The notes under the pieces: generated by a model
Databases searched by the model: none
What the model was told of the DNA's origin: nothing
Seen by the model: the letters and a program-made list of their open reading frames with translations, nothing else
Program-made: the position numbers and the translations under genes
In this document: piece after piece, positions 13,900 to 23,761 of the stretch
How positions within the stretch are numbered: the first letter of the stretch is position 1
Layout: every line of letters begins with the position of its first letter
From: Dipetalonema caudispina
Lineage: Eukaryota > Nematoda > Chromadorea > Rhabditida > Onchocercidae
Assembly (NCBI GenBank): GCA_013365325.1
Contig: JABVXV010000008.1
Span: 186,001-250,000 of the forward strand
Reading direction: 5' to 3'
DNA length: 64,000 nt

Positions 13900-16225
13900 G
13901 TAATGATTTTTCTAAATAAAGTGGGTAATAGCTCTGCAATTTCATAATTAACCGACAGTTCACTATCTTTATCTACTGCTATACGTCATGTGTGGTCTCC
14001 CGCAAGAGAAAAGTAAAACTACATTTCTTCGTTCAGTGGCAAACCAAACAAATTCATCTTCTATAATAAAATAAACCAAACTCAGAAATGTTTGGAGATC
14101 ACGCATTGTACAATATTAAAATTAGGATGCTTTTGTAGCTTTAGAATTCCCTTGTGACTGGTTGATTTTAACTATTTGTTAGCAGTAAATCCTATGCAAA
14201 TGAAGAGAAGGTAGGTTGGAATAATGATAATTCCTTTTGTTGAATAGAGTGTGGAAAAGAACAAGCGGAGAACTCTGTTTTTACCTTGATCTTTTATTTT
14301 TTTACCTCTATTACATCGACCGAATTTTCTATATCAACATGATTAAATTCATAAATGCCATTCTTTACAATTACTTTCTTATATTCATGTTGACTCCCAT
14401 GTTTGTTTGTCTGTATTTCTTGTAGATTAGCAGATTGGTTTAGTTCTGATTCAGTAATTGGAAAGTCTATAAATCACCTCTTTCATATACTGGCTTACTT
14501 AACATGTGAGAGTCCGTCGTTTATGACTTTAAAGCTCTTTTTATTGCAAAGTGAAATATGGAAATAAAATTATGAATCAGTTCAGTCCTCCATACTGTAT
14601 TGTATCTTAGTAACATTAAATTACATGACTAAATCTTGTGACCTTTCAGAATAAATTAGAAGAGATTGTCCGCTTTTATTCGAGAGAACGTACAAAGCGG
14701 TTCCTTCGTTTAAAATACTACAGGGAAGGAAAGTACCACACCATGTTTCCTCCATAATTTGTTGAATAGGATAAAATGATGACTGTAACGAATTACTGGT
14801 TTTGGGGTTCCGTCTCTGTGGCTTCCATAGGAACCTAGTCATCAAAAAAATATGAAATAAAATGCCATCATCGAATGCCCCCTAAAATTCAAGAAATGTA
14901 AAATCCACAACGACTAGCAGTCGGATGGATTGAGGAGGTACATAAGATGGCAGCAGTTATAAGACAAGCTATTAATATCGTTTCAGCTCATCAAGACATA
15001 ATCAAAAATGGCTTCTTTGGAATTAGTCAGATAGGCAGTATAATAACTAATTATAACAGTACTGGCAATTTTAATCACTGAAATGTTGAATATGAAAATA
15101 GATAACTGGCTTTTATTGATAACTTCTTCATTATTTACAGCTGCGACGTTATCTTGCATATACGAAGTGCAAGGTGTATTAATAGAAACAACAAATAGAG
15201 ACATAGCTTAATAAACAAAACATCCATATGCAATTTTTCATGACAGCAAAGAAACTGATGATCGAAATGAAGAGTTATTAGACTCTAGTTTTTTAGCAAA
15301 AGTACTACAAGGAACGATTTTATGCTCCTCTTGGCGAAAACTGCCATGATTAAATTAGTATGAACTGAAGAAAAAATATTGGGCGGTAAAGAATAACAAG
15401 TTGTAAAACAATGTAAAAGTTTAGTGGAAGTAAAGAAAAATTTCAAAGATAGTCCTGATTTCCACTCGGAAAAATCACTGAAGGAATAATACACGGAATT
15501 TCCACTCAATTCTAGAAATTAATACAGCGAAACCCACAAGTCCCTCTAATTAAAAGCAGTTTGCGGCTCTAATTAAAATTAATCATTTAACAACTGCAAA
15601 TTTGCTGATTTTTCCGAACGAATACTCTTTTTATGATTCTGTGCCAAATTCAAGCAATGAGAAATTTCTCTGACTACAGCTAATTTCACAGAATACTACT
15701 GCAGCATTGATTTTTGAGAATTACATTGTGGAAGATCGCTTCTCGAAGTACAGTTCTGTGCTTTCATCGACCTTCAATAAAACAGTAATAATTCCGAAAG
15801 CATTTCTTTCAAAATATATAAGAAAAGCAGAACTATTTCAAATTCTCATTCGAATGTCACACATGTCATTGGAAATTGAATTTATCGAACTAAAGGAAGG
15901 GAAGCGAATTATAGGTGGATCGGGAGTGCAATTCCCCATCGATTTAGTTCCAAACCAGGAAGAAAACAAAAATTCAATTTTTTAAGAGAAATATACCTTA
16001 CATAATGGTAACTTGGAAAATTACGAAAAAACAAATAAAGCAGAAAGTTCATCCCAGAAATCTCCGAACCTGGAAAGGCTCCATAGAAAACGCATTATTA
16101 GGAAAAAATTCCGGTGGAGAGCATGAATTTGTCGTAAGATCGATGTAATCCGGCATAGCTGCAATGCTTTGGGAAGTACATCCAACATACAAAAAACACT
16201 GTAAATGTACCAAAAATACTATCCC
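13900..16225. other. Convergent intergenic region, mis-12 3' side and Notch 3' side
   Basis: It holds the 3' ends of mis-12 (+) and the Notch gene (-). The best open frame is 15707-15985 (+), 92 codons with fairly protein-like composition, but it lacks partner exons and a known domain. Minus-strand frames at 14621-14845, 14983-15204 and 15285-15509 are similar in quality. I support none as a gene. Confidence 0.35.
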
Positions 16226-19200
16226 TCATTGTAAAAGAATGACACCTGGATTTACAACGTTCAAATCAAGCTCTTTTTCTGTTTCTGCTAGTATTTGTCC
16301 GGGTGGCGTAAGTACAAACGATTCGATGGAATTCAGAAGCGAGTTTGATATCGCCATATCTTCATCGACATCACCAACGTCTTCTATGTAATCTTCGTTC
16401 AATCTAATCGCAATGCTTGATGAATTCAATGAAATGCTCTCCTGAGAAGACAAAACTGGAACCTGGGATTCCTTCTTCGACTGATATTTCGCTGAAAGTT
16501 TTTTGATGTGTTCAAATAACTTAAGCAGATCATATAATTATATAAAGGAGAGGTCATTCCATCTGAACTGCACTCGTATTTCCATTTATTTATTATTTTA
16601 TTGCCCTTTATGGGGTACAACTGTCTACTCCTTCACCATCCTCTTTTTGTCAAAGTACTATGGACAAACTTAATCTACCTAGTTGAATAGTAGCATTTTA
16701 AGGAGCAAAATGTTCCAACAGTGTAAATTCAATGTATTTGCTATAGTGGAACAAAATTATTTCCCGGAAAGGGTTGTGCTAGAATTTAAAACATAAGTCA
16801 CAGGACGTGGAAGTTTATTAAGAAGCGCAAATATGAAGTACCTGCATTGGACGGCTTCCGACTTCGTTTTCTTTTCAATGTTTTTACAATATCAGCATTA
16901 TTAACCGTGGCATTTTCTAAAAACTCCATAATAAGAGAATGTCCTCTTTCCCTCGCCACATCCAACGGCGTACGTCCAAGCTGGAAAATTCTACAGTATT
17001 CCGAGTATGAAACTAGAAAAACTGTATACCCCAATATTCTCTTCTTCTAAACATACTTGATCACTGATTTCACTGTTTGCGCCAAACGACAGTAACAAAT
17101 TAACCACATCCGAATGGCCTTCGCGGGCAGCCAGATATAAGGGCGTTTCTCCCTAAATGTTCAAAATAACAAGAATATTATATTACAAATATATTCATAT
17201 CTATCTATCTATCTATCTATATATATAGAACAATTTGGGCCTCGATTATATAAATCAATAGACCAATGTAATCAAACAGCAATGACGAGAAGACTAAAAG
17301 AGTCACAATAAGACAATTAACCTTACTGTCTTCGGTGTCCAACTTAAGACCAAATGCGTACAACACTGGTAAAAGGTCAACACGTCTATTAAGTGCAGCA
17401 TAATGAAGAGCAGTACGTCCAAAAATATCAGTCACGGTTGGGTCATCCTTTTCAGACAATATATCCCGAGCAAAAACACAACCAACTGATCCTGCCGGCT
17501 TCTGAAACAGAATCATTACAAACGAATGATGCAGATCATTTTAATGCTATATAATTTTTAAGTACTTTCACGTACCAAAGAAGGATGGTATTGCCAGACA
17601 CTATCAGAAGACATAAACGTTGACTGTGATAAACCATTTTGCCTGGAAATGAAAAATCAATGATGTACTGTAAGGAAATACACAGAAATAGAGGAAGAAA
17701 GACTTAGAAAAACGGAGACCTAACACGAATTAGTTTGATTTAGTTCACAACGATCATTTGAATAAAAACATTAAGCAAAATTATGTAGGGTAACTTTGGT
17801 GAAACAACAAAACATAACATACGGGAGTGAAGTAACTAACTGTGGAGTGGAAGTATCATTTAATGATTTTGTTTGTCGATAATACTCGGTGTACATGAAA
17901 TCAAGGATGCAGCGTGCGCACAAATCAGAGACATGAGCAAATTTAACAGTTAAAGTAAGTGGTGTTTGTCCCAAGATATTTACAGCACGCAACTGCAAAA
18001 ATTTGTAGTGGTGATGGAAATAGTGAAAAACCAAACATGTTCAAATATCTCAATAAAACCGAATCGAAAGCAAAACTCATCATCAAAGGTAATAAAAATG
18101 ATGTTAAGAGGAGATGAGAAAATGACATCTGCTAGAAGCGATAATGCACTTCTCCAAATAATCGACCCTCTCGAACAATCAAGCCGCCAAACAGCACTCA
18201 GTTGGCATTTTCCACAAATACGGGGCATGCATGTTAGGAGTACCACAACTATTCATTATTTGACAAAAATTTGATAATCTTGATCAGAAGCTTGAAAATA
18301 TTTACATTGCATCGGTGAGTACTTAGCAACAGGCGAATAATCTGGTCACTGTTAACAATCACAGCATGATGTAAAGCTGTATTGTTATCCGAATCAGAAC
18401 AATTCACATCCGCTCCATGAAGCACCCAAAACGACACAGCTTTAACATCATTACATTTAACCGCTTTTAATAAGTCTGGCCCCAAATGACAATCTTGATC
18501 ACCATTATCTGCAGTACATAGCACGGTAATTAATTCATAACTTCTCAAGCTTTTGTGATATATTTTAAACTTCGACTCGAATTCTGTGTCTAAGATCAAA
18601 TTATGTGATAAAAGTCTGAATAATAATCACAAAGTAGTCTGGTGTAATAGAGTAAGTACTTTGAAAATAAAGGCAAGATGGAGAAAAAGTAAATAAAAAG
18701 TTTTCCAAATGACATAAAGCCATATGAAAAATCAAAGAAGCTCACCGTTGAAGCAAGCATCCAGATTGATTAGTATTTTCCGTTCATCGCTTTCTGCCAG
18801 CTGGTAATGATTTATGAATTATAAAAGACATATCTAACATAACAAAATTGAAATTAAGGAGAATCTAAATACCGGCATTACAAACTAACATTTCTCGGCT
18901 GCTCTCGCCTGCAAGAAGCTGAACTTGAGAAAAGCCTAGACAGTGGTGGTAATCCATCTTTCTGATAAGTATCCTTATTGGGAAGGTAATCTTCAGCGGA
19001 TGATATTGTTGACCAGTTGGTGACATTACTTTGTAAAGAAGCTAAAACAATCAGACCAAGTTTTCTGCCAAAACGAGTTTTTGAACAATAAATTTGTATG
19101 AAATGTAAAATACAATTTATCAATGAACTATTAATAAAACCTCAGATTATGGTGTTTGTATAAGAAGTATCGTAAAAGCTATTATGATGAGGAATGGTGA

Positions 19201-22200
19201 AATGAAATATAATGTAACCTGTAGTCTTAGCTCCAATCAATTTTTGCATTATTTACTACATTCTGCATTGAAAACAATGCTTTTTACAGTAGCTGAAAAG
19301 AAAAGCTTGCAACAGCCCTTAAATTTTAATGGACAAATTTTAAGCTTTCTCCTACCAATCATTTTGTATAAAATAATTAGTACAGAATGCTAAGCTTCCA
19401 TTTAATTTGCTGTTATAGACATCCAGTACAATTAGGGTTCTTTTGTACTGACGTTATTGAGATGGAACTCGAAAAATTTACAAAAGTAAAAAGTAAAACA
19501 AACAACATTAGAAGCTGTAAAAACTATTCTGAATCGTTTCACAGTAACTTTATCCACTGTGTTCCATTGTTAATGTGAAACTTATGCGCAATGTTACTCA
19601 AACAATGTGAAACAATGCTTCTTATTTAGTTATAAGTGTGCAAGATAACTAGTTCTTAGGTCAATCGCGATCTGAACTTGAAGAAACAAAAAGGAGTTTA
19701 CAAACGCTAATTTTTTAATATCGTATTCTCGTTACTAACTCCAGCCCTTTATTACATTCCTTAATTAATTACTTTCATTTCGACAATAATACAACATTTC
19801 TTTATAACTAAATTGAAATATTCGTGACTTTGCGAAGAGATAAACAAATACATAGTTCCCCACACTGTAAATTCATAGAATGAAAAACCTCAGAAAAAAT
19901 TTACACTGACTTTGAAAAGAAATTAAGAAAATCTATTAAGGTCGAAAATCATAATACTATTGAATTGTATATTGATCATTCATTTCATTTTCTTAATTTA
20001 TTAATAATGTCCCTGTTATGTGTACTAGATTAACACGATATCCAAATAGAGTCCAATTCCTTCTATGGAGCGACACCATTCTCATAGTGATCCACCATTA
20101 TTTTGGATTATGATACCACACTTGGTTACTGATTACTCCTTGCATATATCATTCCAGTTTAAGTTTTTATTTTTGTTGGCGACTGTTAACCAGTTTAGCC
20201 CAGTATAATAATAGGGTAGATAACTATGGGAATTGTGTATATAAACACTAGACAGGAATGATAGAGACTCCAGAGAACTAACGTAATGTTGATAACTTCC
20301 GTATTATTGATGCAATAGCTATTCATAATAATGTCTTCCAGCGTATTTCATTCGAAATATTTTTGTAGAATGTTGCATTAATCTCGCAGCGGAACTACTT
20401 CATCAAATCACAATTTGTAATTTGAGATAACTATAACTAGTCGAAGTTAAGTATGAGTTCAAAATAACAAATAAAACTAACGCGGTACTTTCCAAACAGG
20501 AGCATGACTTTTCCCGATATTCCGTTTTCTGAATACATCACAAAATCCATAAATTCCACAGAAACACGAGAGGGTTATTCCAATTAAAACAAAACACGTA
20601 ATAAAGATAGTAATAACCGGCAGAGAACGGCTTCTACCACTTTCTACGAATAGTCCTTCAACAGTAACGTCATCCAAACTTATTCGGTTCTTGGCCTAGA
20701 ATGATTATTTTAGCAACACTTCCTCAAATTGAAACTGGAAAGAATTCAGGAGGACAGAATCAGTGAGACATACATAGAGCTTGAAAACGAAATTTAAAAA
20801 TAACTTCATCATAGAGAGCGGTATGAAGATAAGCAACGGCACCAAAAATGTCTGTGAAACACGGCAAAACATTTGTCTTATTCAAATGGAGACGTTGTTC
20901 ACAAAATGTCGAATCAATGTCCACGTAAAGCAAAACACCTGTCGCGTTTCTGAAAGTTTTTCAAGTTAAAATGAATTTGGTCTTACGGCTTTTCGCATCA
21001 CTACTAAATTAAAAACATTAGCTGCTTGGACTCTCTAAAGATGAACGAGTAACGACGAGTGTTTCTACTAAAGGCTAAAAACTGAAAACCATCGATAACC
21101 TTAGACCTATTAAAAGTATCCCCATAACATGTTTTTAAAGCGGGATGAAAATGTGTTCCTTATAAATTGATAACGACCGAAACCTTTAAACAAATGAACA
21201 CGAAATGCACACATAACGCGGCTCTACATATCTATACAAATTTTTTTCAAATTAATTTATGCACTGGATCTAATTTGCTCAGCGTTCTATCGGATATGCA
21301 AGTCAACAAAGGTGAAACTCCAGCTGAAAGCAAAAATTTATTTAAATGTGAATAAATTAGGTAAATTTCTTGTTTTACCTTGATATTTCCCACTGTTTCT
21401 TTAAATTGATCTCCTCCCCAACTCCATTTTCAAATGACCACTCATAAATTCGAGTCTTATTGCTGTTGTCTAAGGCCAAATGTACTGGATTGTGTAGTTT
21501 CTGAAAATTCGAATTATAAATTACGCAACTTTTTGTTAAATCATTTAGAAAATTAAATAAGCAGTCCTTATTATTATCCGCACCAGGTATTTTGTATTGA
21601 ATGCACTCGTGATCTTATTCATATTATATGTCCAGTAATTTCTTATTGCATACAATTACTTCATTTTTAGCAACCAATTAACCTGTGCAAGTTTTGCAAG
21701 AAGTGGATATATTTTGTCAAGAATTTTAGCTGGTGGTCCGTCGAAAATGATGCCAATTGTATTGCTCTCTGTTAGATCACGGAAAAACATATGCCTATCA
21801 CAATCCATACCGTCATACCCGCATTCTGCCACTGCACATTTTTCATCGCATTTCCCATCCATATAATGCAAAGCGCAGTAATCAGAAAATCTAAATAAAA
21901 TGGTGAATTTTCTATTTTTTTCGACAAAAAAGTGTTGGTTTGTGAGATCGAGAGTGAATCAAGGTTTGACTGAACTTAGATTCTGCGAAGACAAACGAGA
22001 TTTGTTATGATCAAAAATAAACTATGATATAAGTCGTGCTTACCTACACTTTTGTGCACTTACAACACAATCGAAACCATCGAAAAAACACTTTCCATTA
22101 TTACATTCCTCATTACAGATTCCGTCAGCAAAACGTAGTGCACAAAATTCCGGATGTTCTTCACATCCAACTCGTAAATAGTCATCTCTTTCTGGTACAT

Positions 22201-23761
22201 GCCTTTCACAGAGCTCACCGCTAAATCCTAGAAAAGGAAAAAATACGGAGAAGCCAGTTGGAAGTTAAGCTTTCTGGAAGCAAGAGCTTTAGTGTGATAA
22301 TTAATAAGACAAACAGTAGACATACCATCAGTACAAAAGCAGATATCATCAATACAAGTACCGCCATTTCCGCATATGTTTCCAAGTTTACATCTACAAA
22401 CGGAAACTATAATTCATTCCGAAAGAAAATGATAAAAACAGAATATGACGAGGCAACCTCTGATTTGATTTCGAAACTACAAACTTCTCTCAAAGTACCA
22501 TAACGGAGACAGTAATGTATTTCAAAGTATACCACAAAAAAATACAAATTAAATATAAATTAGGAGTGAAACTATGGTGATTAGATCTTTGAAACGAACA
22601 AAAGCGTGATAGCAGAAGTGACACAGTTACATCACAAAATCATAATAAGTTAGAGAGATTTGACAGCATGGAAATTAAAATTTTTGGAAGATAAAAAATA
22701 ATAGCAAAAAGTAAACCAACTTATCGAAGGCGTATTCACAATTTTGACCGAAATATCCCATAGAACAGTGACATATAGCAGATCCATTTAAATTTACACA
22801 CGTACCTGCATTGCAATAATGAGGAAATGCCTCACAAACGTCGACAACTTTTTCGCATCTTTCACCACTATAACCTGCTGAGCATGAACACTGAAATATT
22901 CCATTTATGCTCTGAAACCTTCATGAAAATAAATCCTTTTAACAATTTCTTTTAAATGGCATCGAGTTAACTCTCTAAATCTCACTTCGTTGCCAATTAG
23001 CGGCAGGCATTCAATTCAATTTGAAATCCAAAATAATTTGTGTAAGGCTTTTAAGAGCGAGAGAGCGGGAAATTAAATATATTTCATGAATTTCATGCTA
23101 GGTATTTTAAACTGATTTTAGAAATATGGACCCCTGCCCTGTTCATCAGCTTTCAAATAATAAGTGTACACAAATATTCGAGAAAGGAACAGCAGGGAAA
23201 AGAGGAAAGATAGGTAAATTCTGATTATGTGTTATACAGTATTTCTAAGTTAATTTTGAACAACGTAAGATTTGTAAATAATGCTAACTGCACGCAAAAC
23301 ATAAGTCATGAATGCTTCAAAAATCAATTTGGTAAAGTAAACTCAATATGAACATGGAATAAATATCTTAGGTGGAGAGAATAGTAAAAAAGCGTAGCAT
23401 GAACAGATACAAAATCTTAACAGCAATGGATCATAGAAAAGTAGCACAGCTGATAACAGGACTCATAAAATAAAGTGAAGCAATTTGTCTAATTGGTGAA
23501 TGAGTTAATGTTTTATCAAGGTACGAGATTAACTTGATGTTACTGAAAATATCCAGGATAAACGTTAAGCAAGAAGCTAACCACAGCTGAATGAGCTCTA
23601 TTCGTGATTTGCTTCACACATACTCCACCATTCAAGCAATGTCCTGTTGGATCAAAACAGCTCGGCAATGCTAGCAAACAGTTTAGCAACGCCAATGCAA
23701 CATTTATAAGTACCATAACTACGACGTACTGAAATGACATTTTATAAAAGATATGATTCAT
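16226..23761 (-). CDS. lin-12/glp-1: Notch receptor of LIN-12/GLP-1 class, reduced ectodomain
   Basis: Seventeen exons in phase: 23761-23582, 22911-22721, 22393-22326, 22227-22044, 21890-21683, 21500-21379, 20949-20805, 20695-20482, 19041-18890, 18800-18746, 18589-18306 (or from 18508), 17992-17841, 17642-17576, 17501-17322, 17152-17057, 16980-16842, 16491-16226. This gives 900 (or 873) residues. Order: signal peptide (1-34); three six-cysteine EGF repeats (35-151); two Lin-12/Notch repeats (FADGICNEECNNGKC and YMDGKCDEKCAVAEC, about 160-237); heterodimerisation region with LLYVDIDSTFC; TM helix 391-417; a RAM-like HAPVWKVPP; about six ankyrin repeats (NNTALHHAV, LGQTPLTL, FGRTALHYAA, GETPLYLAAREGHSDVV, LGRTPLDVARERGHS); basic KRKRSRKP (nuclear signal); and an acidic PEST-like C-terminus with TPPGQ. 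Known role of the family: DSL-ligand receptor, cleaved by ADAM and gamma-secretase so that the intracellular part enters the nucleus with LAG-1/CSL. No furin-type RxRR site is seen. Far fewer EGF repeats and one LNR fewer than C. elegans LIN-12/GLP-1. Confidence 0.93.
17196..17227. repeat. (CTAT)n microsatellite in a Notch intron
   Basis: About six tandem CTAT units run into a short AT repeat, inside the 169-base intron between the two ankyrin exons 17501-17322 and 17152-17057. Confidence 0.9.

Follow-up and report, generated by a model that had tools for sequence, protein, structure and literature searches.

The 64,000-nucleotide stretch of Dipetalonema caudispina DNA analysed here (the window; assembly GCA_013365325.1, contig JABVXV010000008.1, positions 186,001 to 250,000) carries a gene for a Notch-type receptor with three EGF units and only two LNRs, and because only two LNRs are present, we file the gene as a variant class of Notch rather than a canonical Notch. 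Comparison with predicted proteins of other species indicates that it is a conserved extra Notch receptor, with three or four EGFs and no LNR-A, in filarial and ascarid roundworms. The architecture, the intact frame, its conservation and its class membership are established, and DSL-domain sequences occur in the genome. The gene probably encodes a genuine third Notch-family receptor of its own class, where a direct EGF–linker–LNR-B junction takes the place of LNR-A with its linker, and this receptor would still work under ligand gating although its autoinhibitory module is shortened. The assembly searched alongside the window comprised 78.06 Mb in 764 contigs, the window lying within the contig designated C753.

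Domain order and gene structure

Before comparison with orthologues, one open frame was spliced from 17 exons with GT-AG introns on the minus strand (23761 to 16226). At a threshold of E 1, Pfam recognised PF00008 in three stretches of the protein, LNR in two, and ankyrin repeats, which the orthologue model identified as Notch-type as well. Tandem EGF units are thus present, and the three six-cysteine units of the original prediction were borne out by the intact spliced frame and Pfam. Its two LNRs resembling LNR-B and LNR-C were likewise recovered by Pfam and by phmmer against solved human NRR structures. In the phmmer alignments (shown for Notch2 2oo4 and Notch1 7abv), both LNRs and the beginning of the heterodimerisation domain (HD) run continuously along LNR-B, LNR-C and HD of human Notch, and it is this continuity that identifies the missing third repeat as LNR-A. 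The orthologue model also places an HD next to the LNRs. The predicted 98-base intron is real, but it sits within EGF3 rather than at the EGF3–LNR junction; exon 4 reads straight through the sixth EGF3 cysteine, the 14-residue linker and LNR-B. Hidden EGF or LNR exons, named at the outset as what could overturn the count, were rejected on a pattern scan of the 64 kb on both strands, which matched only the known exons and gave no additional EGF or LNR match either within intron 1 or upstream of the gene, with the limit that a strongly diverged exon could escape it.

Comparison with orthologues also refined the gene ends. The span proposed originally (23761–16226) was correct at its 5′ end, but at its 3′ end the exon had been run on into an intron: exon 17 ends at a donor at 16246 and is joined to exon 18, so that the true end is 16049. 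The exon 18 tail was matched in seven of the eight filarial orthologues, the exception being the O. ochengi model (P0006), which ends about where the earlier reading had ended. Intron 1, first placed at 22912–23581, was corrected to 22891–23581. The start in the eight filarial models corresponds to Met16 of the window gene (position 23716). Near the C-terminus, SFVLTPPGQ in the window gene stands against LTPQEE in Ascaris, L-T-P being kept in 12 of 12 relatives; we take this tail motif to resemble a phosphodegron. Table 1 lists the features.

Table 1. Features of the two-LNR Notch gene (positions in the window; amino acid (aa) numbering from the first Met)
Feature	Position	Strand	Description	Basis
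Minimal Notch gene	23761..16049	minus	18 exons, 896 aa from first Met, no stops	spliced frame, orthologues
EGF1	22855..23659	minus	aa 35–72, interrupted by intron 1 (22891–23581)	
EGF2	22738..22836	minus	aa 79–111	
EGF3	22208..22392	minus	aa 118–146, short type, interrupted by 98-base intron 22228–22325	
Linker ERHVPERDDYLRVG	22166..22207	minus	14 residues, in place of LNR-A and A–B linker	
LNR-B (first LNR)	22067..22165	minus	aa 161–193	aligned to LNR-B of human Notch1/2 in PDB
LNR-C (second LNR)	21800..22048	minus	aa 200–231, interrupted by intron	
HD	20627..21799	minus	no RX[KR]R; His at plug-pocket position	phmmer, orthologue model
Membrane-spanning segment	20543..20626	minus		hydrophobic sequence; helix 371–406 in orthologue model
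RAM-like motif VWKVPP	19040..20506	minus	interrupted by intron	
Notch-type ankyrin repeats	16909..18485	minus		Pfam, orthologue model
Tail motif around SFVLTPPGQ	16283..16321	minus	L813, T814, P815 invariant in 12/12 relatives	
Exon 18	16158–16049	minus	C-terminal tail, absent from earlier reading	orthologue comparison

Conservation and sequence marks of the class

The top eight protein matches of the window gene were all from filarial nematodes (855–894 aa, 72–80% identity, 96–98% query coverage), and each has three EGFs and two LNRs, EGF1 being shortened in the Loa loa model. LNR-A is likewise missing, but the EGFs number four, in Ascaris, Toxocara and Parascaris and in a protein of 1003 aa encoded by a 3331-base contig. 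The count in related nematodes that had been proposed as a check thus found LNR-A absent from eight filarial and four other proteins, and these together with the window protein make up the class (13 rows), which we take to be one of spirurine roundworms. A profile built on the 12 relatives retrieved no additional member at E up to 1e-60. Among the matches listed for the window protein itself, none was from Dirofilaria, Setaria, Litomosoides or Thelazia, though the five-EGF paralogues of these genera (see below) were among the matches listed for the C122 gene. In databases the class proteins are unnamed or appear as “Ankyrin repeats (3 copies) family protein”, “Protein lin-12” or “Neurogenic locus notch protein”. 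Some models are flawed, the LNR–HD block being repeated in Toxocara and part of LNR-C absent in Parascaris. The Brugia pahangi and Wuchereria models (P0004, P0005) lack a stretch of some 22 residues in the N-terminal HD which the other models have, owing to either an annotation slip or an alternative donor inside exon 5.

We aligned 53 Notch-type proteins, namely 50 of 165 fetched sequences that matched an LNR pattern and three from the D. caudispina genome. At least five cysteines occupy the LNR-A columns in 40 of the 40 other Notch proteins, as against none of the 13 class members. Two alignments (A2 and A3) had low overall identity (mean column identity 19%) and were used solely as input for the models. 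Since the entire 1003-aa frame is intron-free on its 3331-base contig, we read that contig as transcript-like. The window gene is known in D. caudispina from genomic DNA, which would suit an artefact of assembly or annotation, or else an isoform skipping LNR-A; this explanation is already contradicted by the agreement of predicted proteins from eight filarial species and three ascarids, by the lack of LNR-A in the transcript-like contig and by the pattern scan, which found no LNR-A-like exon in the 64 kb, and we consider it extremely improbable.

The linker from the last EGF to LNR-B reads ER-x-VP-xxx-DY in all 13 class members, and among filariae it is, at 92% identity, together with LNR-B and LNR-C (85–94%), the best conserved part of the protein; the ankyrin region is 73–87% identical. 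The RAM tryptophan lies in W-x-x-P throughout the class (13/13), the window protein included, whereas 35 of the 40 other Notch proteins have W-x-P and three (P0047, P0057 and P0060) have no RAM motif match. The shift also occurs outside the class, two Steinernema Notch proteins with approximately 21 EGFs and three LNRs (P0051, P0052) having W-G-I-P in place of W-x-P. A furin-type RX[KR]R site in HD was found in 0 of 13 class members, but it is also absent from 17 of the 40 other rows, 10 of which belong to the five-EGF paralogues, and is therefore a weak mark; the canonical filarial pair, the D. caudispina gene on C183 and its orthologue P0050, has RxKR. The calcium-binding EGF pattern was absent from all 13 class members, but also from 13 of the 40 others (one of these a partial sequence), and we draw nothing from it. 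The small number of EGFs, the missing furin-type site and the altered RAM motif could be taken for those of a non-signalling decoy or ligand sink without productive cleavage. A decoy would not need the cytoplasmic ankyrin region that is conserved among filariae, and both of the other peculiarities recur in Notch proteins outside the class, the second of them in the Steinernema proteins with a full set of three LNRs, so we judge this explanation to be quite unlikely.

For the phylogenetic tree, 45 of the 53 rows were used, P0009, P0045, P0047, P0091, P0134, P0148, P0162 and P0163 being left out because we judged these models to be duplicates, incomplete, distant or nearly identical to others. 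The class (12 rows) formed one clade with a Shimodaira–Hasegawa-like approximate likelihood ratio (SH-aLRT) support of 100, its stem measuring 1.52 changes per column, and this quick tree placed it beside all other nematode Notches. In approximately unbiased (AU) tests, the p value was 0.093 when the class was constrained to join the five-EGF class, 0.045 with all other spirurine Notches and 0.061 with the canonical spirurine ones alone; these tests do not clearly reject a spirurine-only duplication, which may thus be spirurine-specific or may be older. Because the stem is long and the tree program flagged a joining of long branches within the class, we claim no date.

Autoinhibition and proposed mode of action

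In simulations of human Notch1, the linker between LNR-A and LNR-B acts as a plug in a pocket beside the S2 strand, and one of the strongest force peaks arises when this linker unwraps together with LNR-A (PMC3145759). The same paper describes G1705 as lining the void that L1482 and F1484 of the linker occupy (the source prints G1795, and equating it with G1705 is our own match). At the equivalent HD position, all 13 class members have H, Y or L, whereas the 40 others have G, A, S or T in 36 rows, W in two, N in one and a gap in one. Such a plug-pocket change could compensate for the loss of LNR-A, the bulky residues at the G1705 and A1708 positions being suggestive only as a class mark.

A receptor without the LNR-A plug might instead be leaky, or hair-triggered, with S2 cut with little or no ligand and the gene acting through its expression level. 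The force peak in human Notch1, the differing linker sequence of the class and the low confidence of LNR-B in the orthologue model would agree with this. However, deletion of LNR-A and the linker is reported to be insufficient for S2 cleavage until LNR-B is also removed (PMC4537882), and PMC3145759 likewise refers to all three elements, LNR-A, linker and LNR-B, being taken away jointly. Moreover, the first pocket residue is altered throughout the class, and LNR-B, LNR-C and the linker are the parts best conserved among filariae. We therefore regard a leaky receptor as unlikely, and the “weaker autoinhibitory switch” proposed originally as unproven. The class retains LNR-B, LNR-C and HD in addition to its own conserved linker, and because the essential parts of the lock named in PMC4537882 are kept, ligand gating with a shortened lock appears likelier than constitutive activity.

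The receptor would accordingly act as a ligand-gated, membrane-tethered regulator of transcription. Three DSL-domain matches above the family cut-off in the genome (L017, L018 and L019) are candidate ligands. A DSL-type ligand might pull on the short EGF stalk and lift LNR-B and LNR-C off HD, whereupon the S2 cut and then a gamma-secretase cut would release the ankyrin part to move to a CSL protein. At rest, LNR-B and LNR-C may hold the receptor silent, while a residue of HD itself would occupy the plug pocket; the lack of an S1 site and the modified RAM motif may alter the strength or timing of signalling. The altered ligand-binding face suggested in the original prediction is plausible; the EGF stalk is presumably too short, by position, to hold a counterpart of vertebrate EGF11–12.

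Several observations weigh against a ligand-gated receptor with a shortened lock. The predicted local distance difference test (pLDDT) score of LNR-B in the orthologue model is 63–71 by block, compared with 79–94 for the three LNRs of the paralogue model, and tight packing of LNR-B is therefore not demonstrated. A structure search with the orthologue model returned ankyrin folds and was hence uninformative on the NRR fold, and Pfam NOD (PF06816) was unrecognised in the window gene at E 1, although HD aligns. Both ctenophores, in which LNR-A is present, carry Trp at the first pocket position, and the Leu at the A1708-equivalent position, present in 13 of 13 class members, also occurs in five of the 40 others, including two Caenorhabditis and both ctenophores. 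The genomic-only record of the gene in D. caudispina belongs here as well. We propose, more tentatively than the ligand-gated receptor itself, that a two-LNR Notch evolved naturally and was kept throughout spirurine history as a receptor lineage apart, with its HD pocket filled from within and a shifted RAM motif that binds the nuclear partner, which would be a different solution to autoinhibition; this fuller account is possible, though somewhat doubtful.

Three Notch genes in one genome and comparison with known receptors

Two further LNR loci were found in the genome, on contigs C183 and C122. The C183 gene is of the canonical type: it has NOD, three LNRs and many EGFs, and supplies the other full-length Notch gene that was to be looked for. 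In P0050, the A. viteae orthologue of C183, the pattern count gave 20 EGFs, and there are three LNRs. The C122 gene (L008:3832-9990) is complete, with 15 exons, 1004 aa, five EGFs, three LNRs and no furin-type site; its orthologues P0041–P0049 are 63–83% identical (best 120 of 371 matches), and relatives of this type were found in filariae, Setaria and Thelazia. The window gene is thus a diverged paralogue, as had been suggested, but the third and not the second. By eye, two introns in the ankyrin region are co-located in the window gene (before LRAV and GETP) and in C122 (before VDPI and GQTP). An LNR-B intron is present in C122 and C183 and absent from the window gene.

Notch receptors are said to vary in size yet invariably to retain the same molecular architecture (PMC7649014). 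In the titles and abstract openings listed from the open-access literature we found no description of a two-LNR nematode Notch. The three-LNR module has been regarded as a constant element of Notch; the class represents a conserved natural loss of LNR-A, and allows us to ask which parts keep Notch silent and sense force. In addition, a filarial-type genome holds three Notch genes of very different sizes, compared with two in C. elegans (PMC10970066), and gene number matters when lin-12/glp-1 biology is transferred to such parasites.

With canonical Notch, represented by the human Notch1–3 NRR structures and by C183 and P0050, the window gene shares EGFs, LNR-B and LNR-C, HD, a membrane span, a RAM region and ankyrin repeats, but P0050 has 20 EGFs, three LNRs, RxKR and W-x-P, where the window gene has three EGFs, two LNRs, no RxKR and W-x-x-P. 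The five-EGF filarial Notch (C122 and P0041–P0049) is similar to the window gene in its shortened extracellular part and its lack of a furin-type site, but differs in having LNR-A in 10 of 10 rows and W-x-P in nine of 10 (P0047 had no match). C. elegans LIN-12 and GLP-1, for which four Caenorhabditis proteins (P0014, P0017, P0064 and P0076) served as stand-ins, are likewise nematode Notches with a reduced number of EGFs; unlike the window gene, these stand-ins have 9–13 EGFs by pattern, three LNRs, furin-type sites and W-x-P. Toxocara canis “lin-12”, Ascaris suum “notch” and the Parascaris relative belong to the class; they share the absence of LNR-A, the linker and W-x-x-P with the window gene, and differ from it in having four EGFs rather than three.
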